Shown here in pieces: positions 33,801 to 64,000 of a stretch of 64,000 nucleotides of DNA. The notes under the pieces were generated by a model, which saw only the letters and a program-made list of their open reading frames with translations, did no database searches and was not told the origin of the DNA. The translations under genes were made by a program, and so were the position numbers. Source of the stretch: Tubiluchus corallicola (lineage: Eukaryota > Priapulida > Priapulimorpha > Priapulimorphida > Tubiluchidae); the NCBI GenBank assembly GCA_030141605.1, contig JAQGDQ010000426.1:102001-166000 (forward strand). Reading direction: 5' to 3'. Each line of letters begins with the position of its first letter. The stretch's first letter is position 1.

Positions 33801-36800
33801 AGAATTTGCATCAGGGATGTTACCGAAATTAAATTTTCTGTTCAATTTGCCGATAATTGCACTTTTGGTTAAGTTTCGGTTTCGGTGATATTTATTAAGT
33901 TTTGTAGCTGAAATTTCTGATAATTTTCTTAAGCATTTTTTAGAAGTTTCATTAGTATTTATCCAATTTACCTTTTCCTTTTTCATGGATGTCAAAAAAT
34001 GCTGAATAATCTTGGCTAAAATAGTTCAAATTTTCATTTACATAACAGTTTGTGACGTGCTTTTCTTAACAATGCGGTATATCTTCAGTAATGACCTCTG
34101 TGAAGTTTTAGGGTCTCCAGGCCCAAACAACCAAAATAAGTTATGAAAGACAGGCAACAAGATATCTACGAAATGAAATATCTTTATTTTAATGAAGCAT
34201 TATGATCTTTAAACGTTAATCATTATGGATACTTGAATCCAAAAACATTGTAACACATTAATTTTTCTAATGTGAGCCACTCCATCAAACTCGAGGTTCT
34301 ATACTATAAAACATTTTTGTTTTTATCAATAATTTTGAATCACAGCAAATAAAAGCAGACAAACAAAAAACAAAATATTTTACTTATTTTAGATTTTTTT
34401 CAGTTTTAATACTAGTTGGTTTTGCAAAAACGTTTCTGTTTGGTTTCGTTTCGGTGTCCGTTTCTTATGTTTGATAAATTTCAGTTTGTAAATTCAGTTT
34501 CGGTAACATCCCTGATTTGCATACAAATGTTGAACTGCTAACTGTATTGTCAGTTTCAAATGTTAGAACCACTATTTTGCAATTGTTTCGGTCTCTTGTG
34601 GCTACGCTACACGTAAGATTTTCTTTTATTTCGATTGCATTTGGGCGAATGTAGTCAGAGGTGTATCAGTGCCCTTATTTTAACCTTTTTTTATCATTTA
34701 AACATTTGTGTTTTAAAATGTACAATGTACAATGTTCATAGACCATACAGGCTGATATTAAATTATTATTATTATGCCATATCAGTCAAATTGCATAGAT
34801 AGTGAATTGCTTATTGTTGCCAGAATCCATTTTAAGCACATTTGTATTTGCTTTAAAAATTAAAATAGAGCATTGCACTCTTTCTGCATATGAACAACTT
34901 ACAACTTTGGCCTAGTAAAGGTCTTAGAATGATTTATTCATCACACAGACTGCATTGCATTTTTATACAATTTCAAAAAAGTTGAAATGAAATTAGCAAA
35001 AAATTCCACAATAACAAAAAAAGGGATTTTTCAATCTGTCACAGTGGATCTGTAATCTATTCCAGAAAAATTGCATTGCTTTTGTGACTGTTTTTCTTTT
35101 TTCCTTCTTACCCGAAGATTGTCCACGGTGCGGATGTAAGTGTCATGTGTTCTTTGTCTTTGTTGTGAAGGATAGTTTGTTAATTGCATAGTATCTATTG
35201 TTGTCACTGAAAATCATTTCTGCATTATTAACAGATAAAGTCAGTTTAATACTATAATCTTCTTCTTCTTCCCAGCTTTTCCCTGTTCGGGGTCACCGTT
35301 GTGAATGAGTCTTCTCCACGCATTCCTGTTGTTGACCATCTCTTCATTTATGTTCTTCTCTCTAAGGTCTCCATTAATACATTCAATGCATCTCCGCTTG
35401 GGTCGTCCTCTTCTTCTATTTCCATCCATCTCAACATCCTCATCTCCACCACATCCATTTTCTTCTCTTCAGTCTTCTTTAGAGAAGCTGCTTCCAGCCC
35501 ATAGATTAGAGCGGGTCTGACCACTGCTTTGTGGACTTTACTTTTAAGTCTCACCGACTCATTCATAAAAGATTTTGGCACAGTTTTTACAGGCGGATGC
35601 CCTTCCTGACCCTAACACTCCCTATTTATCCGGGCTTGGGACCGGCACTGAGTTGGGTTGGCTTGCCCCCCTCCCCAGTGGCTAGGTTAGTTTAATACTA
35701 TAATATTATAATAAATATATATTAAAAGATAAAATCAGTTTTATACTATAATATTATAGTATATATATATATATAGGGGTGTAAGCTCCCAGCTAGGTCC
35801 ACCCGGACAACAATACATTTTGCTGCATTTTAAACCACTTTTCTCCCTTCTAGAAGCCATTTCCTCAAGAAAACTGACCAGTTTAGTACAGGTGTCATCT
35901 CACCTTTGACTCAAAATTACGTATGAATCATTCATATACACTATACATGTATATGATTTACATAACTTTCATCTGTTTTCTTGTGATATATTATTTTTAC
36001 AGATATAAGGCACCTTTAGGGTCTAACAAATCGTTCTAATGCTTGTAATTCAGAGAAAATATTAATTTGGTGTGTTGTAGCTGCTGCTGTGAAATGGAGG
36101 GCCCAGGCCCTTTGGGCCCACACCCTAAATCCACCAATGATATTATACATACTGTATATATACTATATAGTTATACAAGGTATCGTTCACAATAATTATA
36201 ATATTTTCCTTGGTTATAACAGGGTGTTAGCCACCTCGAGAAACATCCTCAGATCAAGTTCACGAAATCCGACCGTCTTGGATACTTGACCTTCTGCCCA
36301 ACCAATTTGGGCACCACCCTTCGTGCCTCTGTGCATATCAAGCTACCAAAGACCTTGGACACGCCGGAAATGAAAGCTATTGTGGAAAAGCACGACCTCC
36401 AAGTCAGAGGTACATTGATGTTTCGCTACTGTTATTTAGCGAATTATTTGTGTAATTTTTAGTGCAATAATTGACATACACAGTAACATAATTAGGTAAT
36501 GAAAGATGAAAGGAACGAAGGTTTACAATTCCCCACGCAATTTAAATTAACCTAACTCTAACCCTAACCCCATTCCTCATCCTAACCCCAACCCTAACCC
36601 CATTCCTCATCCTAGCCCTAACCCTAACCCCATTCCTCATCCTAACCCCAACCCTAACCCCATTTCTCATCCTAACCCTAACCCTAACCCCATCCTAACC
36701 CCAACCCTAACCCCATTCCTCATCCTCACCCTAATCTCCCTCACCAGCTAATTTCTTGTGTGTGGGAATTGTAAACTTTGGCCAACAAAAGATTGTTTTT

Positions 36801-41422: not shown

Positions 41423-44400
41423 TCACTTCGTTAAGCTGTCTTTTAATTTTGACAAAGTTTTTTGAATGTGGTCAAGTACGCCATCGCCATCGGCGTCTAA
41501 GTCATATCTGTCCGGTATACCATCTCCATCTTTATCCTGTTTGTGATCAGGTACACCGTCACCATCATGGTCATCATCTAAATGGTCCGGAATGCCATCC
41601 TTGTCCAAATCTTCATGCACATCTAAAATGCCATCATTGTCGTCATCATGATCATGAATATCTAGGATGCCATCACCATCTGTATCGCGATGAGCATCGG
41701 TTTTGCCATCACCATCTGCGTCCAAATCCCACCTATCTGGAATGCCATCTTTGTCTTTATCTTGTAAATGATCTAGTATGCCATCACCATCATGGTCTTT
41801 GTCAAGACTATCAGGTATTCCATCCTTGTCAGTGTCCTGGTGAACATCGAGAATACCGTCACCATCAGCATCTGCATCCCATCTATCTGGTATCCCATCT
41901 TTATCGGCATCTTGATGCATGTCCAAAATGCCGTCACCATCATAGTCACTGTCCAAATGATCTGGTATACCGTCGCCGTCAGTATCTTCTGCCTTATCTG
42001 GCTGGCCATCTCCATCATGGTCAAAATCATCATGTGTATCAATTATTCCATCTCCATCATGATCATGGTCCCATCGATCAGGAATGTTATCTCCATCAGC
42101 GTCTTTCAGAAAGTCTAGAATTCCATCACCATCATGATCAGCATCCAATGAGTCTGGAATACCATCAGAATCTTTATCTTGCAGTCTATCCAGTATTCCA
42201 TCTCCATCAGCATCTATATCCCAGCGGTCTGGGATTCCATCACGATCACTGTCCTTTAATCTGTCGGGTATGCCGTCACCATCATAATCTTCATCAACAT
42301 TGTCTGGTATTCCATCACTGTCATGATCTTCCAAATGATCAGGTATGCCATCGTTATCATCATCAGTATCTACACAATCCGGAATTCCGTCTTGATCAAA
42401 ATCTAATTTGTGATCATCACAGTATTTATCTCCATCACTATCATGGTCCCACCTATCTGGAATGCCATCATTGTCACGATCCTCATCTTTGTCTAATATG
42501 CCATTTCCATCTGCATCTGCATCTAAACTACTGATGATTCCATCATTATCGCGGTCTTGTATAGAATCAAGTATATAATCCCCATCTTTGTCAATATCCC
42601 ACCTGTCTGGAATGTTATCTCCATCTAAATCTTCTAACTTGTCTAAAATTCCATCACCATCATAATCAGGATCCATATAGTCTGGAATTTTGTCGCCATC
42701 TCTATCTGTTAATCTGTCCTGTTTTCCATCTTGGTTTGCATCATTGTCCCATCTATCAGGTATACCATCATTATCACCATCCTCATTATTGTCGGGAATG
42801 CCATCATTGTCAAAATCTGAATCTTTGTAATCAGGAATGGAATCATCATCTGTGTCCCAATCTTTGTCAGGTATACCATCACCATCTGCATCTCTATCCC
42901 ATCGATCAGGAATGTCATCTCCATCCATGTCCTCATCTTTATCTGGAATACCATTTCCATTAGCATCTTGATCTATACTATTAGGAATGCCATCCTGATC
43001 ATCATCTTGAAGGTAATCAGGAATTCCATCATTATCAGCATCTATATCCCATCGATCAGGAATACCATCTTTATCTAAGTCTTCAAGTAAATCTAAAATT
43101 CCGTTTCCATCCATATCTGGGTCATATTTATCTGGTATGCCATCTCTATCTGCATCTTCTGTATTATCAAGTTTGTTATCTCCATCATAATCACGGTCAC
43201 GTTTATCAGGAACACCATCATTGTCCATGTCATATTCATTATCAGGAACTCCATCGCCATTAACATCAATGTCCCATCGATCGGGAATTCCATCTTTATC
43301 TTTGTCTTCAAGTTTGTCAAGGATACCATTTCCATCAAAGTCGGCATCAAGCTTATCTGGAATACCATCCTTATCTAAATCCTGCAGATAATCTGGGATG
43401 CCATCCCCATCAGCATCTCTATCATATCTGTCAGGAATTCCGTCCCCATCACTATCTTCATTGAAGTCAATGATACCATCACCATCTGAATCGGAATCTT
43501 TGTAATCAGGTATACCATCTCGATCTCTGTCATGAAGTAAATCTTTCTTTCCATCACCATCTGCATCAGAATCCCATCTGTCTGGTATACCATCATTGTC
43601 TTTATCTTCTTGCCAATCAATAATTTTGTTGCCATCGTAGTCACTGTCCCACAAGTCTGGAATGCCATCATGGTCTGTATCTTCTATTAGATCAATAACA
43701 CCATCTCCATCAGCATCAGCATCGAGGCTATCAGGAATCCCATCACTATCCATGTCCTTGATTGTATCAGGAATTCCCTTTCCTGATGGGTCTACGTCCC
43801 AACGATCTGGTATGTTATCTTTGTCAGCATCCTCGTATTTGTCTATTTTTCCATTATTATCATAGTTAGCATCCATCCAGTCAGGTACACCATCTTCGTC
43901 AAAGTCCTGAAATTTGTCGAGAATATTGTCGTTATTTGCATCAATATCCCATCTATCAGGAATTTTGTCGTCATCAAAATCTAGTTGGCTATCAATAATT
44001 CCATCACCATCATAATCTGGATCAAGGTAGTCAGGAATACCATCTTTATCGAGGTCTTCAGCAGTATCTGGAATACCATCATTGTCATCATCAGGATCTT
44101 TACAGTCTGGTATACCATCTTTATCTGTATCTACATGACTGCAGTCATTAGTATCATGGTCCCAGCGATCTGGGATTCCATCTTTGTCGGAATCTTCTAA
44201 ATAATCTAGTATACCATTACCATCATAGTCAGGATCTAAGCTATCTGGTATGCCATCATTGTCTTTATCTTGTTTTCTGTCCATAATGCCATCACCGTCT
44301 GCATCCATGTCCCAACGATCAGGTGTTCCATCACCATCAGAATCTTTGTGTATATCTAATATACCATCTCCATCAAAGTCAGCATCTAAATGATCTGGAA

Positions 44401-45009
44401 TTGAGTCTTTATCTAGATCTTCTTTTCTGTCTGGTATTCCGTCACCATCTGAGTCATGATTTTCAGGCAAATCCCATATGCCATCTGCATTGTAGTCGTG
44501 ATCCCATCTGTCTGGAATTCCATCTTTGTCTTGATCTTCTAGATGATCAGCAATACCATCCCCATCAAAATCTGGATCAATTCTATCCGGAATTCCATCT
44601 TTATCATAATCTTGTTTCCAGTCATCAATGCCATCACCATCTGCATCATGGTCCCACCTGTCTGGAATTCCATCTCCGTCTGCATCTTCTAAATGATCAG
44701 GAATACCATTGCCATCATAGTCTGAATCAAGATGATCTGGAATACCGTCATTATCAGTGTCTTCTAGTCTATCAGGTATGCCATCACCATCAAGGTCGGA
44801 ATCGTGGTGTAAATCAAGTACTCCATCACCATCATGATCTAAATCCCATCGGTCAGGAATGCCATCATTGTCAGCATCCTCCTTATAATCGGGAATACCA
44901 TCACCATCGATATCATGATCGTGGATATCTAAAATACCATCTTTGTCTATATCATGATGCTTTTTATCTTCTACGTCATTGTAAGAGTATTGTGATGCAT
45001 CATTCAGTT
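41423..45009 (-). CDS. TSP3-repeat protein exon 2 (repeat array)
   Basis: A single 3587-base exon carrying the whole array and the stop codon. Unlike the ASPH array, units differ from each other at the DNA level by many substitutions while the D, G, I and P positions are kept, so the repeats look old and under selection. Confidence 0.9.
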
Positions 45010-46725
45010 CTGAAATAATAGAACAAAAAACAATCATTAGATGCAACATTAGAGGCTAGCCAAGACCCGGCAAAAGATTTTACTCATAAACGCCAATAAT
45101 GCGCAAGCATGCTACATAGTGTTCGTTTATTATCTACGCACTTAAAAATAATCTGTTAGATATTACCATTAACGCAAACCCAGCAGAATGGAATGACGTC
45201 AGAGCAATGCAAGCGTCAACGAGAATCGCCCGAAATGGAGCTTCCGAAAAACTCCTCTTGGCGAATGTTTCCCCAAAAGCGACTCACATAAACGTGTAGC
45301 CCTATCCCCCTCTTTCCAAATAGCTGCAGATCTTCCTCCCAGACCCCAATCAGGTGCCGCTGGGACGTTTTTTCTACAGTGTGTTCTTCTAAAAGTTCCA
45401 AAAAATCGGATAGATGTGTCGGGAAAAACGAGCGTTGAGAAAAGTCGTGGGTTTGAACTTGCCATCAAACTATTATGAGCACTATTATACCGCGTGAGAA
45501 ACAAGAGGTATAAATTTTCGCCCCTCCGTTCCTCCCGGTGTCCCGGATTCGAAAAATGAACCATCAACGAGGCGACATTTGATCGAGAATTTTCGTTTGT
45601 AATATAGAACACCGCAAATGATGCAATCATTAAAACTGTAGCCTCAAGTCTTGTATATAAAAAACGTGCCATACCACAGATATTAATATTATAGAAGATT
45701 TAGATGTAAAACCCAATTTTTTGTTTCGTTTTTTTTGGTGAAATGAAACACCCTTATTTTGGTAGAAAAAGAACTGTTGCTCAATGAACCTTAACAGCCT
45801 AATTTAAACGCTACAAGAACGTTTAGGAAAGACTAGTTGCAAGAAATCTTCGTTGTATAAATTCACGTAACTCAATCACACTTTTGACAATAATACCCGT
45901 TTATATTATTTATTTTTATTGTGTTTAATGCTTCACAAATTGACTAATGACTGGCAAAAAGATGTGATTAAAAGTTCATCTCAACCTGGAATCGACCACG
46001 CTCTGTTTGCAAGTCAAATCCTCTTTCTAATAACAATCAATTCGTTCAACGCTTTCAGCCACTGTAGCACAGTTTAAACAATAGTCTAACATGTAATACT
46101 ATTGTTTAAACTGTGACTGTAGTGTATAAGATAGCTTTATTTGTTAACAAACTGGACGCAAACGTCATCGGTTAATCGCTTAAATGAAAAAGACTGACTA
46201 TCACAGCGTGACATAATCAATGTGAAAAAAACGGAAGCGGAAATAATCCCTGTGTCGAATTAAGAAACCAGAAACCAAGATTTTAGTTTCGTGAAAAGAA
46301 CGGTTTTTACCAAGGCTGTTTTTACCGCGAAAGATCTTGAAGACTGCAGTAGCATGCATGGCAGACTATATTTATTTGTTATTTGTTTTATTCACTCTCC
46401 TCATATACACAAATTACAAAAAATACATATTTAATATAGAAATTTGGCATAAAGACTACACATTACTCAAAATAAATATCTAAATAGCATTTCAAAAATT
46501 TTGTGCATGACTAGAGAAAGGGAATGGTCTGCACAACGTAGGCCTACATAAACCTGTATAAACGTTGATCAGCAAATTCTAAAATGCATTCACACCTTTA
46601 TAGGTTAGTAAAATGAGTACCTCTCACTGATCTGTAAAATGAATATCATACTCACCTTGAGCAAATGTCAGATGAGCTGCATTCCAAAGAGCGGAAATGC
46701 ATAAAAAACAAAGCATTAACTTCAT
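41423..46725 (-). CDS. Secreted acidic thrombospondin-type-3-repeat protein, complete, 2 exons
   Basis: Encodes about 1218 residues. Exon 1 (46656-46725) gives a signal peptide starting MKLMLCFLCISAL and ending LTFAQ before a G|GTGAGT donor. Exon 2 (41423-45009) follows a strong TTATTTCAG acceptor, and the split Glu codon keeps the frame, so the mature protein begins near ELNDASQYSYNDVEDKK. The rest is continuous acidic repeats of D-x-D-x-D-G-I-P-D-x-x-x, an EF-loop-like pattern of thrombospondin type 3 repeats, arranged in about twenty super-repeats of roughly 50-55 residues marked by DGIPDRWD. The protein ends with a short basic tail, IQKTLSKLKDSLTK. Only four cysteines occur, in two similar modules ending DGIPDC. 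Expected role: extracellular (or ER/Golgi lumenal) high-capacity calcium binding. No adhesion, EGF or transmembrane domain is seen. An in-frame ATG at 45049 lies inside the intron and is not the start. Confidence 0.88.
45090..45660. repeat. Dispersed repeat family C, copy 2
   Basis: Diverged copy of 24600-25030. Shared landmarks include TAGTGTTCGTTTA, ATGACGTCAGAGCAAT and CGTGTAGCCCT. It carries TGACGTCA at 45194-45201. Confidence 0.6.
46068..46115. repeat. Perfect 17-bp inverted repeat
   Basis: CACAGTTTAAACAATAG at 46068-46084 and its exact complement at 46099-46115, with a 14-base loop. It could form a hairpin in the nascent intron RNA or be the relic of a small palindromic element. Confidence 0.75.
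46656..46725 (-). CDS. TSP3-repeat protein exon 1 (signal peptide)
   Basis: 23 codons plus one base: Met-Lys start, a hydrophobic core of about 15 residues, and Thr-Phe-Ala-Gln at the end, consistent with cleavage after Ala. Donor GTGAGT. Too short to be found as an isolated reading frame. Confidence 0.85.
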
Positions 46726-50511: not shown

Positions 50512-50662
50512 TTATAGAGGTGACAGGGCTTCGATTTGGGCTTCCGTTAGATCCGGATGCCAGAAATCTACTAACAAAACTAGCCGATAGGCGTCGCCAT
50601 CGTTCCACACTTCGTGATCGAATGAGTCGTCGAAGATTATCACTTTGCCCTCTTTCCATGCT
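50512..50662 (-). CDS. ASPH: ASPH terminal exon (second iron-binding His)
   Basis: Acceptor TTTCTAG. Completes an Arg codon, then AWKEGKVIIFDDSFDHEVW, AYRLVLLVDFWHPDL and stop TAA (50512-50514). Contains the distal iron ligand and the 2-oxoglutarate-binding Arg. Confidence 0.96.
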
Positions 50663-53600
50663 CTAGAAATGAAAAAAGTGTGATACTATCTAGGATTACT
50701 TATATTTTTTATACAAAGACATTCAAGGCAGATCTTTCTTCGTAATTGTTGTCTTGCAAATGCTTTAAGTAATGCTTACAAATGCTTTAAGTAATGCTAA
50801 TCAAAAAATTTTATAATTTGAATCTGCAACACTCAACAAAATCTGCCAGTAGTAACAACAATCAACAATTTTTGTAACTGCATATTTTATTTGTGTAATT
50901 TAGCATCACTATGCCAAATGTTTTTTTCCATTTATATTCACTTACCAGACATTGTGTTTATGTAATCATACCAGCGTTCTTTAATTTTACATTTGCAGTT
51001 ACATAGTTACAAGTATAGTTACAGTTGTTCTAATTTCACTATAGAACGCATTTCTAATTTACTTTTTTACCTCATAAACTTAATATTTACAGTCATTTGC
51101 AAAAGTATCAGACCACCTCCAGAAATCCACCCCCGCATCACTTGTAGCTAATATGCCTCGCCGACTGCAAGCAGCCATTGATGCTCGTGGGGGGGGGACA
51201 CAACATACTGTAATATCTTCAACAGGACTCTTAAATACAGTAAGAATACGAATCTGAACATGTTGTGTTAATTTTTCTAAGATTAGACAACAATAATGTT
51301 TGTCTTATCAGTATATTGAGAATTATATTATTTACTATTATTGTCCAAGACAGTGAGACTTAAAGGTAAAGTTCACAAAGCAGTGGTCAGACCCGCCCTA
51401 ATCTATGGGCTGGAAGCTGCACCTCTAAAGAAGGCAGAAGAGAAGAAAATGGATGTGGCGGAGATGAGGATGTTGAGATGGATTGTGGGAGTAACAAGAA
51501 GGGATAAAATCAGGAATAGTAATATTAGAGGAACAGTGAAAGTAGTGGAAGCCTCGAAAAGTATACAAGAGGCAAGATTGCGATGGTATGGGCACCTGAA
51601 AAGAAGAGTTGGGGAGGATCACGTGGGAAGGGAGGTCATGGAAATGGAAGTGCTGGGAAATAGAAGAAGAGGACGACCCAAGCTGAGATGGTATGAATGT
51701 ATTAACGGAGACCTTAGAGAGAAGAACATAAATGAAAAGATGGTCAACAACAGGAATGCATGGAGAAGACTTATTCACAACGGCGACCCCGCATAGGGAA
51801 AAGCTGGAAAGAAGAAGAAGAAGAAGAAGAAGAAGAAGACTGTTATTGTCCAAGCCAGTAGATTTGTTCTTACTAGAAATAATGAAGTTGAACTCAAATG
51901 AAAATGTATTTAACTCCTGTTGTTGATTAATTGCATTATTAACCCAAAGTGTTTTTATCGTTTCATAACAATTTTGACCTGTATTTCACATAAAATCTAA
52001 ATGCTATTTTAGTTTAATCAAGATTGACCATATTTTGTTGCCCGCTAATTCAAGTACATGTATTTTCTTTACTCTGGATTATATAGCAAATGCCATAATT
52101 TTAAAATCATTAATGTTTCCTAAATTAAACTGATAACATTAATGCCCACCAGTGTCTAAAATCATTTCATCTATATTCGGTATAGGATAGCAGACTAAAT
52201 GACTTTATAGTCTTTTCGCTATCCTTTCTCTAGTTCTAGATCTATCTATTCATTTTAACCATTCTTCAAAACTTATTAGCAATTCTTTTATTAATCATGT
52301 TTTACCGTAGTGTTATAAAGACATAAATAAATTAAAATTGAATTGAAAAAATAAAGAATTTTATGTTTCCATAAAGTCACGTTTTCCTAATAAATGCCTT
52401 TTTCTCAGGGGTGGTGCGATACTTCTGCAAATGGCTTTATCAAATAAACAAGAAAATCACGTGACATTTAACATTTATACTGTTTCAGTTATACTTTCTC
52501 ACCTTGTTTCCTCTCCTACCCTCATTCTAGCTCCTCTAGGAACTTTTAGCCCCAAGTGTGCACGTATCCTAGTGTTTGTGGGACCCGTATGCGGCCAAAC
52601 GTGGGTGCCAGGTTGCATCAGTGAAAACGTGACCTATAAAATTATAATATAGTTATGAAATGACCTTGAAAAAATAATAATCGGCTGCCCATTTAACCTC
52701 ACATTAAAAATTGTTCATAACAGCGCCATTGCATGTACAATTTTGCATAATAAAAAATCGATTAAAATAAACACGAAAATAAAATAGTGTGACCTTGACC
52801 TTACCTGACCTCTCTTACAGTTCGCTGCTGCTTCAATCTCGTCGATTATTGCACACGTTTTGGATGCTCGTCTGCAGTTTTTATAAATTTTTTGGCCTGC
52901 AAAAACGTTCAAATACTAAAGGATCACGTTATAGTTATAATACTCCTAGTTCAAAAGCATATTATCGTTGTAAATAGGGCCGGATTATGACTTTTGAAAC
53001 CCCTAGGCTAATGAAATTGTAAGGGGCCCCTATGATGGAGCCACCCTCTAAGTTGCTCGCGCTCGACTCGAGTATTTTTTGCTTGTGATATATTTCAGCT
53101 AAATTTCCCATATTTCAAATAAAGGGCTTTAAAGAAGGGCCCTTATCTCAAATAGAGGGCCTCGAACAACCGCACTTCGTCTCAAATAAAAGACCTTAAA
53201 AGAGATCCTTTATCTCATATGAGAAGCCACTTTAAAATTGGATTTTCAGATTTCCTGGCATCCTTTTCTGAAATTGAAATTTTATTTTAAGTTATATGTT
53301 GTTGGCATCCTTCTGTCTCGGAAGACAATGGAGTGTGCGCCAAGAGAGTCAGTTATTGATCACATTGATGGAGCTGCAGCGTCGACGGAAGACAATGGAG
53401 TGTGCGCCCAGAGAGTCAGTTATTGATCACAGTGATGGAGCTACAGCGTCGACTGTGGCTGAGCAATGCGAATGTCTCCAGGGCGCACGCCTGGGCAAGG
53501 TGTATGGAGATCCTGAGTTGCCCAGACAACAGGAAGCCCTCTCTTCCTCCCTGGTGTAGTCCAAAGGAAAGCGGAGCGATACGTTTGGCACCAGGTTGGT

Positions 53601-56600
53601 TGCAGGAGCTGCCGGAGTCAGTGAGCGAAGGCATAAGTTATATAAATTATTCAATAATGCAAGGCATTGGCCTGCAAGCTTGAGGGGTCCTGGGCTGCAG
53701 CGTATAATAGCCTACAGAGTAATCCAGCCCTGATTCTAAGATTAATTAGTATTAATAGGCAACACTATTAATTTCCATGAATTAATTAAACTCTATGAAT
53801 TTGTTGCAAAACATTTATATTACCTTGTTTGAATAAATGAAACCTTTTCCAGTCGCCGTCGGTGTAACTAAGGCCCTCGTCTTTGTACATACCGCTGGAG
53901 GAGTCCATGTATTTTATTGCTTCGTCTCGTATAGTCTCCCAGTTGTTTTCTAGAAGCTAAAATGCACAAAAGATTGTCGGAAGAGCAAAACCCGATAACT
54001 GATCTAATAGTAAGTTTATTAATCCAATTAAAATGTGATTAATCGTGCGCGTGTCATCCTATCAACACAGCCTGTAAGTTAATGCAAAAATGAGCCAATC
54101 TGCTCAAGTGAAGAAGTCAATTGGTGCCTTGGTGGGTCATTTGGCTAGTCAGTCGGTCAGTCAGTTAGTCGGTGCGTTTAGCACATTAATTAAAGAGGTG
54201 CATTTCTGTTGACTGGTTGGTTTGAGTTTAAGGTTTTTTTACAATGCACATGTGTGAGTATAATATACACGTTATAATGAACACGTACAGTCATCTGATT
54301 GGTCAATGGACAATTGTACACGTACAGTCATCTGATTGGTCAATGGACAATTGTACACGTGTACAGTCATCTGATTGGTCAATGGACAATTGTACACGTG
54401 TACAGTCATCTGATTGGTCAATGGACAATTGTACACGTGTACAGTCATCTGATTTGTCAATGGACAATTGTACACGTGTACAGTCATCTGATTGCTCAAT
54501 GGACAATTGAATTCGTCAGTCAATTATTTTGTTGTATTTTAAAACCACAACGTTTGGCTATTAAAAAATACAGTAAAAACACACAGGTAACTAAGAGAAA
54601 ACGAGAATTATACTATCTTAATCACAAATTGCAGATGTGCAAATTTTATGCCAAAAATGTTGGTCAGATACAACATAACTAACCTCAATGGCTTTTACTT
54701 GTTTAAGTTCTTCTGGCGTCCACCAGGGTTTTGCGGTGAGACCTTCCACGTTGTAGATATTTGGGGATCTCTGCCACATAGATGGATACAAACCTTTTCT
54801 AGCTCCAGCCTTGTAAACTCGGTACGCCTGAAACAAACAAACATCATCATTTCAGTATATATTACATAGTTACATAGCACTTAAACCCTTCCATATATTA
54901 CATAGTTAGCACTTCAGCCCTTCCATATATTACATAGTTAGCACTTAAACCCTTCCATATATTACATAGTTAGCACTTAAACTGTTCCATATATTACATA
55001 GTTAGCACTTAAACCCTTCCATATACTACATAGTTAGCACTTAAACCCTTCCATGTATTACATAGTTAGCACTTAAACCCTTCCATATATTACATAGTTA
55101 GCACTTAAACTCTTCCATATATTACATAGTTAGCACTTAAACCCTTCCATATATTACATAGTTAGCACTTAAACCCTTCCATATATTACATAGTTAGCAC
55201 TTAAACTCTTCCATATATTACATAGTTAGCACTTAAACCCTTCCATATATTACATAGTTAGCACTTAAACCCTTCCATATATTACATAGATAGCACTTAA
55301 ACCCTTCCAAATATTGCATAGTTAGCACTTAAACCCTTCCATATATTACATAGTTAGCACTTAAACTCTTCCATATATTACATAGTTAGCACTTAAACCC
55401 TTCCATATATTACATAGTTAGCACTTAAACCTTTCCATATATTACATAGTTAGCACTTAAACTCTTCCATATATTATATTGTTATGTAGTCAGACATTAC
55501 ACAACACTTGAGTTAAAAAAGACAGCAGGTTGTTATAGGATTTACATGTCAAATGTAGACCTACGTTAAGTCAAATGTAGATTTAGGTAATTCAAATGTG
55601 TCTTGGTAGCTCAAATATAGTCTTAGGCAGTTCAAATGTGTTAACAATGGTTTTCAACAAATCTTAAGCGTTTTTTGGTAAGTCAAATGTAGACACATGT
55701 CAAGTCAAATGTCCTATGTCTACATTTGACTTACCTAAGTCACATTTGAACTTTCCTATGTCCACATTTGACGTGTAAAACCTATAGTGCCGTAAAAAAT
55801 AATAGTACAAAATTATTACCTTTAATAGACAACGTAATTACCTGCTTGGAATCACAACTGAACTATTACCACATCTATTCTCAATGCTTAGCTTTTGGTC
55901 ACTTCCCCCTAAACTCTCATTAGCGTTTCTGTTCTGGTATTTGACCCTACCTAATCAGTCTATAATGTGGCAATCTATTACAGCCCATAATAGTTTCTAT
56001 CCATCAGTTATAAATGTGACCCGTTGTTCTTGCCGTATTTTTGACAGCAAGCAACACCTGAATAAATGTCTTATTTAATATTGTTTTCACGTTTAATGTG
56101 GACCAATTCTTTAATTAACTAATGTGGATTTATTTAACGTTATTATTTTTGTTTTCAGTTCTTTTTGGATAATTTGTATCATTTATACTGTTTTTATTAC
56201 TATTTTTTCTTATTTGTTTTTGTTTTTGTTATCAGCGGCATCACCGTTAATTTTTTATTTACTAATCTATTTATAACAAAGGACAGGAGACTAGATGACC
56301 CTATGGTCCTTCCCTGCTCTGCTCCATGATTATAATTACTTATTATTTAAAAAACTTTTGATGTTAAACTAATTGGAGAAAATAAATGTTCTATGTCTAT
56401 ATGTCTATGTCTATGTCTGTTTCGAATGCAGGCAAGGATGCCTTTCTTACCTCATGTTTTTTACCATCTCTGTAATAAATGTCCGCTAGGTGGTAGAAGA
56501 ATTTTGCGTCTGATGCACCGACTTCTTCACACTTTATGCCTTGCTCTAGGTGTGGTACAGACTCTTGTGCCTTGTTGTACGTAGTTTTCAAAATGAAACC

Positions 56601-59600
56601 CATGTACGCATGCGCAAGACAATTTTCCGGATCTTTCTGAAGAACCTGGTTTAAAGACAGTTAAAAGAAGGCGGTCATTGTTTGGATTACACACTTTGGC
56701 AAATACATACACTAAGTGATGTTCATTAATCTTTTTGACATTTTGCATTTTATATTAATTATTTTTAACATTAATTCTTATCTGAGTATCGCCCTATTCT
56801 AAACTGTCAAAATGCATAAAACAAAACGTCGTAAAACCAAAAATAAGTTTCCCACAGGATAAAATTAAACAAATAAATAAGTAATTATTAACTAATAATA
56901 AGTAAATAAACAAAAATGCAAATATATGAAAAATATGAGCAACGCAGAACTTTAAACAATGTAGTACTGTACACTACATATGTGTTGGGCTATTACTAAA
57001 CTTTAACTAGAAATTCTATAAAAAAAAATCCCTCTGGGTTGAAAAACGCACAGTTAAGGTAGTCTCCTGATTCTAAAAACCATAACACTAAAAAGCAGCG
57101 TCATTTTGTAATTCAAATTTACCAAGCATTTTTGCTGCTGAAATGAAATCAATACTGTCTTTCTTCGTTGTTTTACAGTTCACAAAAATCTCAGTTTTTA
57201 ACACTTTGATTACCAAGTCAGAACGTTCAGATACAGTCAGCATGAAAAAGAGGGACTCCACAGACTCTGTGATACGGGAAAGGAAGCAAACAAAAGCAAG
57301 TTTACGTACGAATGAAATTACAGGGTTGTTTGATCTACAACAAATCGTTGAACATCAAATGGCAACAACAACTACTGTTCAAAATAAGATAGAACTGTTC
57401 CGAGACTGTCATAATCAGTAAGAGAGGTCAAAATGCCCCTGGGTCTCATTTTTTGTTTTCCATTCAGAAGCGCTGGTTCCTCGCGGACTTCATCAGATGA
57501 AATCAATTTAAAAGACGATTTACGTTATACAAGTTCAGCTGATAAACTTCCCGAGGCACGAAAGCTTATGAGGGAAAAATAAAGCATTTTTGAGACTCTG
57601 TTTTAGATATAAGCACGTGGTGCCTCCTTGTGTTTGTTTTTTTTTGCAAAATGAGGCTGTTGATCGACAGGTGAGCTAGGACTTGAATTAGGCCATTGGC
57701 CTCATTTTGGAGACAGGATAGGAAAGAAGTCATTTTTGTTCAGTATGTAGTATCGCTTCATGATAAAATTTATCAGTCGAGTTCTGTTTAGCAAGTTAGT
57801 AAGATGCGGCAAAGATGTAAGTTTGATTTCCTCATATTTCGTCATGTCATATTATTATTAATTATCGTTATACCAGTTACTTAATTTTGGATTAGCAGAA
57901 AGAATTTTTATTTGCTTCAGATAAAACGAAGTCGAGTCGCACATATTATGTTAGTCAGTCAGTCAGTCAGTCAGTCAGTCAAGTCTGTCATGATGTGATA
58001 GTGATTTCGGAATATGACGATAATTGGCCATTTTCCATTGTCATGATGACAATAAAAATCATGAATTACATCTAAAAGACTCGTATTTAGCGCATGTCGG
58101 GCACAGACCCTAAGGGCATTTTGATTCCTTTTGACATCTACCATTCGATATTCATATCGGCTATCTGTCGGCTGAATCTTTCATCCTTCGCATAGCCAAA
58201 GAATAAAAATCTTGTAGCAGTTCTAATTTTGCCATAAAACGTTCGACATTATAAACAATTTTCGTCGCTACTTGATTGGTTCACTTTTCCAAAATGAAAA
58301 CCCAGCACCAGTTTTTTTTGGTGCCTTTGCTACCTTCTCAAATATCTTTTCAGCTTCCATTGGCTTTCCGAAGTCGAGCAATCCTATCCCCTGCTCATTT
58401 CTCAGCTCCATGCTATTCGGATACCTTTCTACCAGGTCGTCCAAAACTCGCTTGGCTTTCTTTTGGAACCCTGACAACAGAAGAAATAAGCAAACCTAAT
58501 TACAAGATTCAATCAATGGTAAAACGCAAATTACTGTCAAGGATTTTAGATTATTTTATTACTTTAGTGTTTGTTAGTGTCTCTGAGAGGCATTTATGAC
58601 AACTTCAAAAGTCTCAGCTGAATTTTCATGAAACCACTGATCTTTATTTCTGCAATATTTAAAAATTAAAACAGAAAGGCAAAAGTGACTGACATTGGCT
58701 AATTTTATGAAAAGTTACATAGTTTAGTTAGATTGACAGTTATTTAGTCCATTCATAAATATCAGTGAATAAATCTAAATAAAAATTAATAGAAGTAAAC
58801 TTACATCGTTGCGGCATATATCTAATGAAATGTTTCGCTAGCTTGTACAAGACACATGTTCACTCATACTACATAACAGCATAATGAAAACATAACTAGG
58901 TCAATGCCCACACTTTAAACTTTCTAGCTAGATGGAGCCACCTTGGCTACAAAATTAAAATTTATTAAGTCAGGTTCACACTGGCCTTAATAGTGTTCAC
59001 TCATTCTTAACCCCCCCCATACTGTTTCTCTTTTCATTCATGTATGTATGTCTTGGCCTGGCTTCTTTTTGTCTGCTGACAGATCAAGTTACTTGGTCTG
59101 TTGGCAGTCTGTTCCTGTGTTGTTGCTTGTCTCAGTTAAACCATTTATTTGTCAAGAGTAGCAGAGTCATTATGTAAGTACATTTCTTGTTTCTCACTGT
59201 TATTTTATTATTAATTGCTTTGCTTCTTTTTTTAAGCTCAAATTAGTTTCTTATATTTTGTTGTGATTATTCTTACTTACGCAATAAAGCTACTCAAACA
59301 TGAATTCTTATTACGTATTGAGTAACATGACTCTTATTCTTACTTAAAAAAGCTACTCAAACACGAATTCTTATTACGTATTAAGTAACATGACTCTTAT
59401 TCTTACTTAAAAAAGCTACTCAAACACGAATTCTTATTACGTATTAAGTAACATGAAACTTATTCTTACTTAAAAAAGCTACTCAAACATGAATTCTTAT
59501 TACGTATTAAGTAACATGAAACTTATTCTTACTTAAAAAAGCTACTCAAACATGAATTCTTATTACGTATTAAGTAACATGAAACTTATTCTTACTTACG

Positions 59601-62600
59601 CAATAAAGCTACTCAAACATGAATTCTTATTACGTATTAAGTAACATGAAACTTATTCTTACTTAAAAAACTACTCAAACAGGAATTCTTATTACGTATT
59701 AAGTAACATGGAACTTATTTTTACTTAAAAAAGCTACTCAAACACGAATTCTTATTACGTATTAAGTAACATGAAACTTATTCTTACTTAAAAAAGCTAC
59801 TCAAACATGAATTCTTATTACGTATTAAGTAACATGAAACTTATACTTACTTACGCAATAAAGCTACTCAAACATGAATTCTTATTACGTATTAAGTAAC
59901 ATGAAACTTATTCTTACTTAAAAAAGCTACTCAAACACGAATTCTTTTTACGTATTGAGTAACATGAAACTTATTCTTATTAAAAAAGCTACTCAAACAC
60001 GAATTCTTGTTACGTATTGAGTAACATGAAACTTATTCTTACTCAAAAAAGCTACTCAAACATGAATTCTTATTACGTATTGAGTAACAGGAAACTTATT
60101 CTTACTTAAAAAAGCTACTCAATGAATATTTTGACTCTGGGCATCATGAAAGTAGTAATCTCCCCCAATTACGATGTTTGTAAACAACTGTAATGCTTAG
60201 AGATTATTGTTTGTCACTAGTTTTTCCAAATTCTACAATGAAATAAATAAACAAACTGGGAATTCGAACGAAATGGAAAAGCCTCAAGGGTTTTTGAATG
60301 TAGGACAACGTATATTTATTTCGGATGTTAGAGAGAAGTTTCCACTTACACTTATGTAAATACGGATCTGTTAGAAAACACACACGGAAATTACGAAAAC
60401 ATTCTTACCTTACTGTTGTCGTCTCAGTATCACTGGAAGAAAAATAAAATAATCGGTTACCTCTAAATCGGAGTGCCTCCACTTCCTTTATGCCTGCATA
60501 AATCACAAGAACCAGTGGGGCGTCAGGTATTTCTACAACGTGGCCAAACTCTGCTACAGCATCTTCCAATAATTTGTTGCTCTTTTTGAAATCTGCTAGT
60601 TCGTGAAGAACCAATCCTTTGCCGAAATGCGCTCTCGGACTCTTAGGATGCGATCGAAGAATCTCGTCATATTTGTCTTTGGCGGCGTGGTACATGCCCT
60701 GCGTTCATTAATTTACATTGTCACTCTTAAACAAGCAAATGTCCAGAGCACGCATTCGTAAATTTATCATATATGGTTATCATATACGGTTATTTTACAT
60801 ACGTAGAAGGGGACTTTAGGAAATGATTGCACTTCCAACTTCCTGTGTACTGAAGAAACCGAAAAGAATAGATAAAAATCTATTGCACTGTGAAAAAGAG
60901 TATTTAGTTTTACATAAAGGAGATTTATCATACCTAATGCCTGATAATACGCAGCACTGACCATGAATGGCCATGAATGTCCACGCGTTCATAATGGTTT
61001 CTCATCGAAAATGCCGCCATTTCTTCAACAAATTAACTGATTTTTTTTATTTTTAGCACTAAAATGTCGAAAGGATTTAAAAAACACGTTAAATAAAAAT
61101 CATTATAATGATTAGAATATTTTAAAAAATACATTAATATTTTAAGTATAGCTATCATTTCCTGATACCCCGTGTAATTTCTATTCCAACATTAGTGATT
61201 AAATGGTGTCAAACATATAAAATGCCTAAGTTGCCAAAATATGTGTTAACTCACAGTGTGAACAAAACCAGAACGCCATTAATTATGATCTCCGATTCCA
61301 AAATGCAGGTCCCAGATCTACAATCTCAGGACACCAAAAGACTTTATCTTAAACCTTGATATTGAATAGGTAATGCTGTAGGCAACTGGTGATTATGAAT
61401 GGCATTACAAAAGAAAAAATTGTTGGAAAACTGTGCGAGAAATGCTTGTCAAAGCTTTTTGATTACTGTGCCAGAAAGGCAAAGTTTGTTTTACCTTGTG
61501 CAATAAGTCATCTGCCATGTCAAGGTCTTTACGAATCTTGCTGTCATATTCATTTGTGATGTCTTTATTTCTGTACTTCAGCCGCTTGCCAACTCCCAAA
61601 TCTTGTTCCCTTTCAGCTGCTTCTCGTGCACTTACTAAGTTCAGGGCATCAAAATCTTCAGCTACTGTTGCATCACTGACAAAGCTATCAGATTCGTCTA
61701 CGTCGCTTTGACCACCTTTACGAGCGTAGCCATGAGGTTGTGCTTTTTGGAGTGAATCTAGTATGCCATCGCCGTCAGCATCATCATCCAGGTAATCAGG
61801 AATTCCATCACCATCTGTGTCAATCTGCTTCCAGTCTGGAATTCCATCGCCATCCTTGTCTTGCAGCTTATCTGGAATGCCGTCACCATTTGCATCATCG
61901 TCTAGATAATCTGGAATTCCATCGCGATCCGTATCAATTTGTTTCCAGTCTGGAATTCCGTCACCATCTTTGTCTTGTAGATGATCAGGTATGCCATCGT
62001 TATTGTCATCGTCATCAAGATAATCCGGAATTCCATCACCGTCGGTATCAATTTGTTTCCAGTCTGGAATTCCATCACCATCTTTGTCTTGCAGGTGATC
62101 AGGTATGCCATCATTGTTATCATCGTCATCCAAATAATCTGGAATTCCATCACCATCTGTATCTATCTGTTTCCAGTCTGGAATTCCATCACCATCTTTG
62201 TCTTGTAGGTGATCAGGTATGCCATCATTATTGTCGTCATCATCAAGATAATCTGGAATTCCATCACCATCTGTGTCGAGGTCTTTGTCTTCCTCAATAC
62301 TTGCAAGTTTTCTTTTTTTGAAACCACTTCCTTGTTTACTGTCTGGAATACCATCACCATCTGCATCATCATCCAAATAATCTGGAATTCCGTCCCCATC
62401 TGTATCGACTTGCTTCCAATCTGGAATTCCATCACCATCTTTGTCCTGTAAGTGATCTGGTATTCCATCATTATTATCATCATCATCTAAATAATCTGGA
62501 ATTCCATCACCATCTGTATCAATCTGTTTCCAGTCTGGAATTCCATCTCCATCTTTGTCCTGTAAATGATCTGGGATGCCATCATTGTTATCATCATCAT

Positions 62601-64000
62601 CTAGGTAATCTGGAATTCCATCTCCGTCAGTATCGATTTGTTTCCAGTCTGGAATTCCATCTCCATCTTTGTCCTGTAAATGATCTGGGATGCCATCATT
62701 GTTATCATCATCATCTAGGTAATCTGGAATTCCGTCTCCATCAGTATCAATCTGCTTCCAGTCTGGAATTCCATCTCCATCTTTGTCTTGTAAATGATCT
62801 GGGATGCCATCATTGTTATCATCATCATCTAGGTAATCTGGAATTCCGTCTCCATCAGTATCAATCTGCTTCCAGTCTGGAATTCCATCTCCATCTTTGT
62901 CTTGCAAGTGATCAGGTATGCCATCATTATTGTCATCATCATCTAGGTAATCAGGAATTCCATCACCATCTGTGTCAATCTGCTTCCAGTCTGGAATTCC
63001 ATCACCATCCTTGTCCTGCAACTTGTCTGGAATACCGTCACCATTTGCATCATCATCTAGGTAATCTGGGATTCCATCACCATCAGTGTCTATTTCTTGC
63101 CAGTCTGGAATTCCATCTCCATCTTTATCACCTTGTAGTCTATCTGGTATACCGTCGCCATCTGCATCATCATCAAGGTAGTCAGGAATACCATCACCAT
63201 CTGTATCAACCTGTTTCCAGTCTGGAATTCCATCACCATCTTTGTCTTGAAGATGATCAGGTATGCCATCATTGTTGTCGTCATCATCTAGATAATCTGG
63301 AATTCCATCACCGTCTGTATCAACTTGTTTCCAATCAGGAATTCCATCACCATCCTTATCCTGTAACTTGTCTGGAATACCATCTCCATTTGCATCATCA
63401 TCTAGGTAATCTGGGATCCCATCACCATCAGTGTCAATCTCCTGCCAGTCGGGAATTCCATCTCCATCTTTATCACCTTGTAGTCTATCTGGAATGCCAT
63501 CGCCATCTGCATCATCATCAAGATAATCAGGAATGCCATCCCCATCAGTATCAATCTGTTTCCAGTCTGGAATTCCATCACCATCTTTATCTTGTAAATG
63601 ATCTGGGATACCATCATTGTTGTCGTCGTCATCTAGGTAGTCCGGAATTCCGTCACCATCAGTATCGATTTGTTTCCAATCTGGAATTCCATCTCCATCT
63701 TTGTCCTGTAAATGATCTGGGATGCCATCATTGTTGTCGTCATCATCTAGGTAATCTGGAATTCCATCGCCATCAGTATCAATCTGTTTCCAGTCTGGAA
63801 TTCCATCTCCATCTTTGTCCTGCAGATGATCAGGTATGCCATCATTATTGTCATCGTCATCTAGGTAATCTGGTATTCCGTCCCCATCAGTATCGATTTG
63901 TTTCCAGTCTGGAATTCCATCTCCATCTTTGTCCTGTAAATGATCTGGGATGCCATCATTGTTATCATCATCATCAAGGTAATCAGGAATGCCATCACCA
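50512..64000 (-). CDS. ASPH: Aspartyl/asparaginyl beta-hydroxylase with TSP3-type repeat array (5' end outside window)
   Basis: Fe(II)/2-oxoglutarate oxygenase that hydroxylates Asp/Asn in EGF-like domains in the ER lumen. Nine exons, 5' to 3': 64000(open)-61495, 60698-60461, 58470-58334, 56645-56451, 54827-54684, 53956-53824, 52896-52805, 52633-52503 and 50662-50512. All junctions are GT-AG and in phase. The order is a repeat array of at least 740 residues, a 90-residue linker, TPR-like helices (RSHPKSPRAHFGKG, GFILKTTYNKAQESVPHL), MWQRSPNIYNVEGL, KPWWTPEE, a two-cysteine segment, then the oxygenase core. That core has the first iron His in WPHTGPTN (codon at 52589-52591) and the second in FDHEVW (50614-50616). 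2-Oxoglutarate contacts are conserved: Ser in FSLMQPG, the second Arg of TRIRAHL, and Arg in AYRLVLL. It ends LTEAQIEALSPL. Human ASPH has an Asp/Glu-rich linker rather than a DGIPD array. The N-terminal cytosolic and transmembrane part lies beyond 64000. Confidence 0.95.
51341..51796 (+). pseudogene. LINE ORF2 C-terminal fragment
   Basis: A 151-residue frame: [69 protein letters not shown] and [15 protein letters not shown]. This is the post-reverse-transcriptase region of a non-LTR retrotransposon, with the RLRWYGH and RGRPK-x-RW motifs. It lacks the polymerase, so it is 5' truncated. A GAA tract (about 51812-51838) follows. It lies antisense to ASPH. Confidence 0.85.
51918..52346 (+). mobile_element. 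LINE 3' tail, copy 2
   Basis: Closely similar to 27000-27433, from the ATTATTAACCCAAAG-TGTTTTTATC region to the end ATAAATTAAAATTGAATTGA. Carries the same stem-loop at 52185-52224. Length differences are a few small indels. Confidence 0.7.
52503..52633 (-). CDS. ASPH: ASPH exon with first iron-binding His
   Basis: Acceptor TTTATAG, donor AG|GTGAGA. Encodes VTFSLMQPGTHVWPHTGPTN and TRIRAHLGLKVPRGARM. This is the most conserved part of the family. Confidence 0.96.
52805..52896 (-). CDS. ASPH: ASPH exon with the two-cysteine segment
   Basis: Acceptor TTTGCAG, donor CAG|GTAAGG. Encodes GQKIYKNCRRASKTCAIIDE and NCKRGQ. The C-x6-C pair matches the disulfide-forming pair of human ASPH. Confidence 0.94.
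52974..53732. mobile_element. Probable hAT-like element in ASPH intron
   Basis: Left end TAGGGCCGGATTATGACTTT and right end whose complement begins CAGGGCTGGATTACTCTGTA, with CCTAGGCTA and GGGGCCCC just inside. CAGGGCYGGATTA ends are common in hAT elements. I find no clear 8-bp duplication, so this is tentative. A 70-bp internal direct duplication (about 53320-53455, AGACAATGGAGTGTGCGCC) lies within it. Confidence 0.5.
53824..53956 (-). CDS. ASPH: ASPH exon (linker before the catalytic core)
   Basis: Acceptor CATTTTAG, donor G|GTAATA. Encodes LLENNWETIRDEAIKYMDSS and DGDWKRFHLFKQ, matching the human segment that precedes the cysteine pair. Confidence 0.94.
54285..54515 (+). repeat. Minisatellite of about 39-bp units with CACGTG and ATTGG
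   Basis: Six copies of a unit with CAGTCATCTGATTGGTCAATGG and ACAATTGTACACGTGTA blocks. Most units include the 12-bp palindrome GTACACGTGTAC (core CACGTG) and an inverted CCAAT. Located in an ASPH intron. Several overlapping frames (QSSDWSMDNCT and similar) are repeat artefacts. Confidence 0.92.
54684..54827 (-). CDS. ASPH: ASPH exon (PWWTPEE segment)
   Basis: Acceptor TTGTTTCAG, donor GAG|GTTAGT. 48 codons encoding AYRVYKAGARKGLYPSMWQR and GLTAKPWWTPEELKQVKAIE, aligning closely with human ASPH. Confidence 0.96.
54862..55490. repeat. Minisatellite of about 32-33-bp units
   Basis: About nineteen copies of TTCCATATATTACATAGTTAGCACTTAAACCC with single-base variants, in an ASPH intron. Confidence 0.95.
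55500..56420 (+). mobile_element. ASPH intron segment with a LINE-like 3' end
   Basis: 55500-55790 holds imperfect inverted and direct repeats of TCAAATGTAGAC. From about 55880 to 56410 the sequence resembles a retrotransposon 3' end: a stem-loop GGACAGGAGACTAGATGACC through CCCTGCTC (56281-56320) like those in the two LINE tails above, then AAATAAATG and a short TATGTCTA repeat tail. Confidence 0.5.
56451..56645 (-). CDS. ASPH: ASPH exon (TPR-like helices)
   Basis: Acceptor AAACCAG, donor GAG|GTAAGA. 65 codons, including VLQKDPENCLAHAYMGFILK and FFYHLADIYYRDGKKHE, corresponding to the human FILK-x-x-x-K-x-AESIPYL region. Confidence 0.95.
56646..58333 (-). other. ASPH intron
   Basis: AT-rich, with a short (GTCA)n run near 57951-57980. 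A plus-strand 92-codon frame at 57143-57421 has no recognised motif. Nothing else seen. Confidence 0.6.
58334..58470 (-). CDS. ASPH: ASPH exon (TPR-like helices)
   Basis: Acceptor TTGTCAG, donor AAG|GTAGCA. Encodes FQKKAKRVLDDLVERYPNSM, LRNEQGIGLLDFGKPMEAEK and IFEK. The reading frame continues past the donor, but joining at AAG to VLQKDPEN of the next exon matches the family alignment. Confidence 0.92.
58471..60460 (-). other. ASPH intron with large minisatellite
   Basis: Most of the second half is the array at 59275-60125. The first half is AT-rich with nothing recognised. Confidence 0.7.
59275..60125. repeat. Minisatellite of about 62-bp units
   Basis: About thirteen copies of a unit with AAAAAGCTACTCAAACATGA, ATTCTTATTACGTATTAAGT and AACATGAAACTTATTCTTAC. 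Three units carry a TTACGCAAT insertion, spaced as if copied together. Confidence 0.95.
60461..60698 (-). CDS. ASPH: ASPH exon (first TPR-like helices)
   Basis: Acceptor GAACGCAG, donor G|GTAACC. Encodes GMYHAAKDKYDEILRSHPKS, RAHFGKGLVLHELADFKKSN and EIPDAP, aligning with the human YPQSPRARYGKAQ region. Confidence 0.94.
61495..64000 (-). CDS. ASPH: ASPH exon with TSP3-type repeat array (runs off window)
   Basis: Open throughout to the window edge, at least 835 codons. About 18 units of 38 residues are visible: QDKDGDGIPDWKQIDTDGDG, IPDYLDDDDNNDG and IPDHL. Each unit holds three D-x-D-x-D-G-I-P-D-type calcium loops. Most 114-bp units are nearly identical in DNA. One unit near 62281-62340 is broken by a basic insert, GSGFKKRKLASIEEDKD. 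After the array come SLQKAQPHGYARKGGQ, an acidic/Ser stretch, and REAAEREQDLGVGKRLK through DDLLHK at the donor AAG|GTAAAA. The array start and its upstream exon are not in the window. Confidence 0.93.

Follow-up and report, generated by a model that had tools for sequence, protein, structure and literature searches.

A predicted aspartyl/asparaginyl beta-hydroxylase with a 64-repeat thrombospondin type 3-type array in the priapulid Tubiluchus corallicola

We analyzed a 64,000-nucleotide stretch of the genome of the priapulid Tubiluchus corallicola (contig JAQGDQ010000426.1 of assembly GCA_030141605.1, C1070:102001-166000; hereafter the window, whose numbering we use), adding its upstream flank up to the contig end and searching the 343.5-Mb assembly of 2344 contigs. 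A minus-strand gene of this region appears to encode an aspartyl/asparaginyl beta-hydroxylase (ASPH) in which a 21-residue hydrophobic segment is followed by 64 cysteine-free repeats of the thrombospondin type 3 (TSP3) kind (residues 59-890), a linker, a tetratricopeptide repeat (TPR) region, and the oxygenase domain. The hydroxylase head and the repeats are each of a known kind; the head has an altered substrate pocket. Their fusion is very probably real and, as far as could be checked, an arrangement of domains not yet described for this enzyme. The explanation we favor, with some confidence, is that this is a membrane-anchored ASPH whose lumenal linker is a TSP3-type rod captured from a neighboring gene, which would serve as a calcium-binding arm and perhaps accompany an altered choice of substrate. 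The array-bearing ASPH was itself the subject of an earlier note on this DNA, to which the neighboring gene and the altered pocket are additions.

The gene runs from 64624, outside the window (C1070:166624), to a stop codon at 50512, and consists of 10 exons and nine introns, all with GT-AG boundaries and matching phases (Table 1). Its predicted product is 1380 amino acids long and meets no stop before the terminal one. Between 61405 and 63999 the minus strand has an open frame that encodes DGIPD repeats followed by the linker; the array frame runs beyond the window to 64307, where it ends at an acceptor (TTTTATTTTAG). The earlier note had read this exon as continuing in frame, through the linker and a phase-0 splice, into the TPR and oxygenase exons of ASPH, and the gene model bears this out: the 61495/60698 splice is GT-AG and phase 0, the later joins up to the stop are likewise GT-AG and in phase, and the encoded head aligns with human AspH (9fvu_A, residues 323-755) at an E value of 1e-118, in a continuous alignment that begins inside the array exon and reaches 41.4% identity over 430 aligned residues. 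Asp_Arg_Hydrox (PF05118) matches the protein at 2e-56 (190.6 bits against a cut-off of 22.6), and several Pfam TPR families score above their cut-offs. Two introns contain other features: a tandem array of a 63-nt unit in 13.4 copies (59267-60122) lies between exons 3 and 4, and a plus-strand fragment that by eye resembles a long interspersed nuclear element (LINE) reverse transcriptase (51320-51796) lies inside the last intron.

Table 1 Exons and related loci of the array-bearing ASPH gene and its neighbor (window coordinates unless a contig is given)
Feature	Content	Position	Strand	Basis
ASPH exon 1	start codon, hydrophobic segment	64624-64516 (off window)	-	start/donor scan
ASPH exon 2	TSP3-type array, linker, start of TPR helix 1	61495..64000 in window, on to 64307 (C1070:166307)	-	
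ASPH exon 3	TPR	60461..60698	-	
ASPH exon 4	TPR	58334..58470	-	
ASPH exon 5	TPR	56451..56645	-	
ASPH exon 6	end of TPR region, hinge with PWWTPEE	54684..54827	-	
ASPH exon 7	oxygenase domain start, Gln627 position = Arg	53824..53956	-	
ASPH exon 8	oxygenase, conserved cysteine pair (641, 648)	52805..52896	-	
ASPH exon 9	oxygenase, Lys666 position = Thr; His679, Arg688, His690 kept	52503..52633	-	
ASPH exon 10	oxygenase, His725, Arg735, stop	50512..50662	-	
Neighbor exon 1	signal-peptide-like start, phase-1 donor	46656..46725	-	start by eye
Neighbor exon 2	about 90 TSP3-type repeats	41423..45009	-	
Intronless ASPH paralogue	single open frame, no array, signal-peptide-like start	C404:62127-62588		start by eye
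Intronless ASPH paralogue	single open frame, no array, signal-peptide-like start	C618:15568-16023		start by eye

That the array belongs to ASPH is supported by the exon that carries it. Its last codons encode DITNEYDSKIRKDLDMADDLLHK, with which the TPR domain begins. Against human AspH, the exon's 84-residue tail scores 47, where the best of 5000 shuffles reached 41. The genome also holds two ASPH paralogues, which we call C404 and C618 after their contigs; both have TPR and oxygenase regions, and they are 45.1% (C404) and 46.0% (C618) identical to the ASPH head. The last 34 residues of the array exon score 54 and 67 against the two (shuffle maxima 51 and 53), with none of 5000 shuffles as high for either, and both paralogues carry the equivalent stretch, NITSDYDFNMQGVLDAADDLL and NITNDYDFKIKKKLDSASERL, respectively, directly joined to their own TPR sequence. 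Because the array exon encodes the TPR start and the paralogues hold this stretch uninterrupted, we rejected the candidate explanation that the array is a separate gene, which the earlier note had named as a way its reading could fail. The other such way, an assembly misjoin, finds no support in the sequence: the array, the exon with the hydrophobic segment, and the TPR exons are all found on one contig, and there is no N in the window or upstream flank. As for the paralogues, they may be retrocopies turned soluble lumenal enzymes. A further member of the oxygenase family, on contig C1961, has a hydrophobic segment by eye and is one we take to be ASPHD-like.

The transmembrane exon that the earlier note expected past 64000 has a candidate there. 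We looked for start codons combined with a hydrophobic stretch and an acceptable donor and obtained 12 rows, which fall at four places; one of these is situated just upstream of the array and has a fitting phase (64624-64516, MEGKGSNKLTFCVLFVFLLLVGGVFFFVLDTDATVQ). Its donor scores 10.5 in phase 1, against 6.4-7.0 for the other rows; a 21-nt microexon considered upstream of the array was discarded when it proved to be the end of this exon. The hydrophobic stretch directly follows MEGKGSNK, and since it spans 21 residues and is preceded by basic and followed by acidic residues, we read it as a putative type II membrane anchor. Asp-B-Hydro_N (PF05279) found no match in residues 1-107 of the protein at E values up to 1, where the human control stretch gave 1.6e-41, and a genome family search with the same model returned no match, with its control not detected either. 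To our knowledge this domain is a feature of vertebrate members and is not required of all ASPHs.

The array contains 64 DGI[PL]D motifs in 832 residues, spaced by 12 or 13 residues except for one 30-residue gap. Its 64 loops take the form [DN]x[DN]xDGIxD, its net charge is -252, and none of the 832 residues is a cysteine. Pfam TSP_3 (PF02412) matches the minus-strand array frame at 5.7e-16 over 19 stretches, and comparison with the type 3 repeats of COMP gave 3.2e-6 for the whole sequence and 0.0011 for the best single stretch. Repeats of 13 residues (44 of 64) all retain D5, D9, G10, I11, and D13, and those of 12 residues (18 of 64) are identical to one another at positions 2-12. At the level of the larger unit, 20 units starting with YLDDD lie in the window, of which we compared the 16 that are a full 114 nt, leaving out three of other lengths and the terminal tail. 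All 16 differ in DNA but encode only five protein versions, and the ten that share one identical protein differ from each other by 5 to 19 nucleotides. The proportion of synonymous differences (pS) is 0.63, which is near saturation, that of nonsynonymous differences (pN) is 0.027, and the resulting dN/dS is 0.02, or 0.06 with the tail kept (17 units). Other reading frames gave 2.3, 2.6, 1.8, and 15.7, and one antisense frame gave 0.07, which we ascribe to coinciding third positions. The array is constrained protein sequence, and its loops predict calcium binding. One unit (62379-62251) contains a basic insertion, GSGFKKRKLASIEEDKD, from protein position 696 onwards, possibly a putative protease site.

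Constraint of this kind bears on whether the array might be a passive spacer, replacing the linker of other animals, in which length and negative charge matter and calcium and clients do not. We regard this as the foremost of the alternatives, albeit an unlikely one. The earlier note had called the human lumenal linker short, which is incorrect: in 9fvu_A the hydrophobic region falls within residues 47-126, near the start, and alignment to our ASPH head begins at 323, so that roughly 250 residues separate anchor from TPR domain in the human enzyme too. The strong acidity of the array would suit a spacer, and recent duplication or gene conversion could yield part of its uniformity, even if the units are not alike in DNA. 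A mere acidic spacer, however, would have no need of loop positions held in 44 of 44 and 18 of 18 repeats, nor of a dN/dS of 0.02.

At the other end of the protein, alignment to human AspH shows that His679, His725, Ser668, Arg688, His690, and Arg735, which make up the two-histidine iron site and the 2-oxoglutarate (2OG) residues, are kept (roles as given in passages of PMC6817910). Arg replaces Gln627 and Thr replaces Lys666, two residues whose contact with the substrate carboxylate in human structures is given in the same passages; the conformation of Gln627 is described in PMC13168262 as differing between Asp and Asn substrates. C404 keeps both residues, and C618 has Glu at 627 and Lys at 666. 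The pocket for the substrate tyrosine has Tyr for His493 and Lys for Arg526; both paralogues have a changed His493 as well, and C404 also a changed Arg526. A gap makes the alignment uncertain in the acidic loop, in which Glu615 is replaced by Lys and Arg620 by Ser, and Asp616 and Glu617 are kept. With the iron and 2OG residues retained and the pocket changed, the head should therefore bind iron and 2OG and may choose its substrates differently. We conclude that the gene probably encodes a complete ASPH, predicted to be an active enzyme, and the changed pocket suggests a shifted substrate for this copy. The roles of Gln627 and Lys666 are those known from human AspH, and the changes at the two sites we read as a variant and not as a sign that the protein falls outside ASPH.

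The neighboring gene, modeled with two exons, lies 3.8 kb downstream of the ASPH stop and has the same orientation. Its 1218-residue product, predicted to be secreted, is 34% Asp and consists almost wholly of TSP3-type repeats. These mostly alternate between 13 and 12 residues (41 and 38 of 93 pieces), and the protein includes 18 RWD motifs and six cysteines, of which the signal-like start contributes two. We searched the genome with 534 residues of the ASPH array as query, scoring the best candidates only, and obtained 11 matches: two were the array itself, five the neighboring gene (54-61% identity), one the opposite strand of the array, two lay on C872, and one on C688. The C872 matches (25-26% identity) are unrelated tandem repeat frames without DGIPD or DxDxDG loops, the C688 match contains 13 stops, and the opposite-strand match (C1070:+) contains 23, leaving no third DGIPD-type array among the best candidates scored with this query.

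The neighbor raises the possibility of a dedicated enzyme-substrate pair, in which ASPH would hydroxylate Asp or Asn in TSP3-type repeats, either its own or the neighbor's. The two genes are adjacent and on the same strand, with related arrays that comprise the only DGIPD-type repeats found by the array search, and this ASPH is the only one of the three copies without Lys666, having Arg at 627 where C404 has Gln and C618 has Glu. Set against this, the substrates preferred by human AspH contain a disulfide loop between cysteines 3 and 4, as stated in PMC6817910, and cysteines are absent from the ASPH array and number six in the neighbor; Asp side chains loaded with calcium would be poorly accessible; and no report of TSP3 hydroxylation appeared among the open-licence PMC matches listed, although no search was aimed at it. 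We hold such a pair to be rather improbable. The same low expectation attaches to its broader form, in which the rod-bearing, pocket-altered ASPH would be the dedicated hydroxylase or assembly partner of its neighbor, with calcium-controlled beta-hydroxylation or docking on a non-epidermal growth factor (EGF) repeat.

With respect to origin, a phase-1 intron stands just before the array in both genes, and the common 38-residue unit of the ASPH array fits the last three repeats of the neighbor best (score 148, 25 of 38 residues identical, the same 13-12-13 lengths). Most likely, judging by these similarities, the array was captured from the neighbor (or both derive from a common tandem ancestor) and one three-repeat unit was then expanded: the array would have moved in from the adjacent TSP3-only gene through the shared phase-1 intron and been enlarged by duplication of the 38-residue unit. 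The ASPH array is uniform and that of the neighbor diversified, which suggests a direction from neighbor to ASPH without proving it. Other ASPHs have a single EF-hand-like loop after the anchor (human YDADGDGDFDVDDAK); that the array grew from this loop, and not from the neighbor, strikes us as doubtful. The human chain does have this loop just past its hydrophobic segment, about where the array begins here, and short human loop stretches are 57-60% identical to the array over 14-15 residues (E 1.9-4.9). The array nonetheless matches the neighbor over hundreds of residues, and the loop-spanning Asp-B-Hydro_N finds no match in residues 1-107 or, in the search whose control went undetected, in the genome. 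Least credible is an artefact of annotation or assembly in which the array exon is part of another gene: tandem arrays are prone to misassembly, but the ASPH sequence within the exon, the splice phases that fit on both sides of it, and the absence of N from window and flank leave this very little room.

We thus return to a membrane-anchored ASPH with a captured TSP3-type rod. The repeats would bind many calcium ions in the calcium-rich secretory lumen, forming a stiff, negatively charged arm; thrombospondin type 3 repeats are described in part of PMC4034032 as binding calcium cooperatively. Such an arm would keep the TPR-oxygenase head off the membrane and beside calcium-rich clients, for which the product of the neighboring gene is the first candidate, and ordinary EGF domains may be left to the two paralogues that lack an array. 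The earlier note had suggested that the array could tether or sense lumenal calcium or space the catalytic domain far from the membrane, roles that are likewise conjectural. Several points weigh against parts of this proposal. The hydrophobic segment might instead act as a cleaved signal peptide; by eye, such a peptide seems to begin both paralogues. Calcium does not directly inhibit the head of human AspH and instead stabilizes certain substrates against the enzyme (PMC6817910, section 12), which leaves a simple calcium switch acting on the head unsupported. The case for capture is built on the adjacency of the genes, their intron phase, and their similarity, and such repeats could arise by convergence; prokaryotes commonly have similar arrays, and the next-best segment of the neighbor follows closely behind the best (score 142, 26 of 38 identical). 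A genome family search with PF02412 found nothing, its control not being detected, and since it missed even the known arrays, other TSP3 genes may be missed as well. Finally, pocket residues vary in the paralogues also, as with Glu at 627 in C618.

Among known systems, human AspH (PDB 9fvu, 5jqy, and others) has the same order of hydrophobic segment, linker, TPR region, and oxygenase, with the Fe and 2OG residues in common; it differs from our protein in that the latter has a 64-repeat TSP3-type linker, no Asp-B-Hydro_N match, and changes at Gln627, Lys666, His493, Arg526, and Arg620. Thrombospondins and COMP (PF02412) share with the array DxDxDG loops at 12- or 13-residue spacing. Their layout, as outlined in part of PMC4034032, comprises cysteine-bearing type 3 repeats, EGF domains, and lectin-like C-terminal domains, whereas Pfam scans found no thrombospondin domain besides the 64 repeats, and these contain no cysteine; these traits of the family are lacking here. 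Bacterial TSP3 proteins (MtsC, BamM, CglD, and many GTDB loci) have DGDGIPD-type arrays, as seen here. Partial NCBIfam matches, all below curated cut-offs, were to BamM (2.1e-24) and MtsC (2.5e-23) for the ASPH array and to CglD (1.5e-11), BamM (7.4e-10), and ClfB (1.1e-5) for the neighbor. Bacterial arrays of this kind are not known to contain cysteine. At least 79 prokaryotic loci have similar arrays, with best segments 31-58% identical, and an ASPH oxygenase was found in 0 of 79 such loci (stretch around each array, E 0.01); two scans of viral contigs likewise recovered no relative of the ASPH head or array. An earthworm peptide, DDDDDGDGIPDSK, is assigned in part of PMC11547318 to a protein named Ofus.G011730. 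The earlier note knew of no described ASPH with tandem TSP3 repeats, and this stands for the open-licence PMC papers among the matches listed, where no description of the architecture appeared.

Elsewhere in the window, a plus-strand phosphagen kinase exon (36220-36459) has taurocyamine and arginine kinases as its closest relatives in PDB, and a further such exon is visible by eye at about 14700. A 35-nt unit is repeated about 55 times at 11015-12897, and a minus-strand fragment at 35351-35611 resembles, by eye, a LINE reverse transcriptase. Scanning the window for Rfam families and tRNAs gave no hits.

The neighboring gene is unusual in its own right, with about 90 TSP3-type repeats and little else. 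For the ASPH family, the case bears on the role of the AspH lumenal linker and on AspH substrates other than EGF domains, and a calcium-repeat linker combined with changes at Gln627 and Lys666, in a genome that also holds two array-less paralogues, offers ready comparisons for the study of substrate choice.
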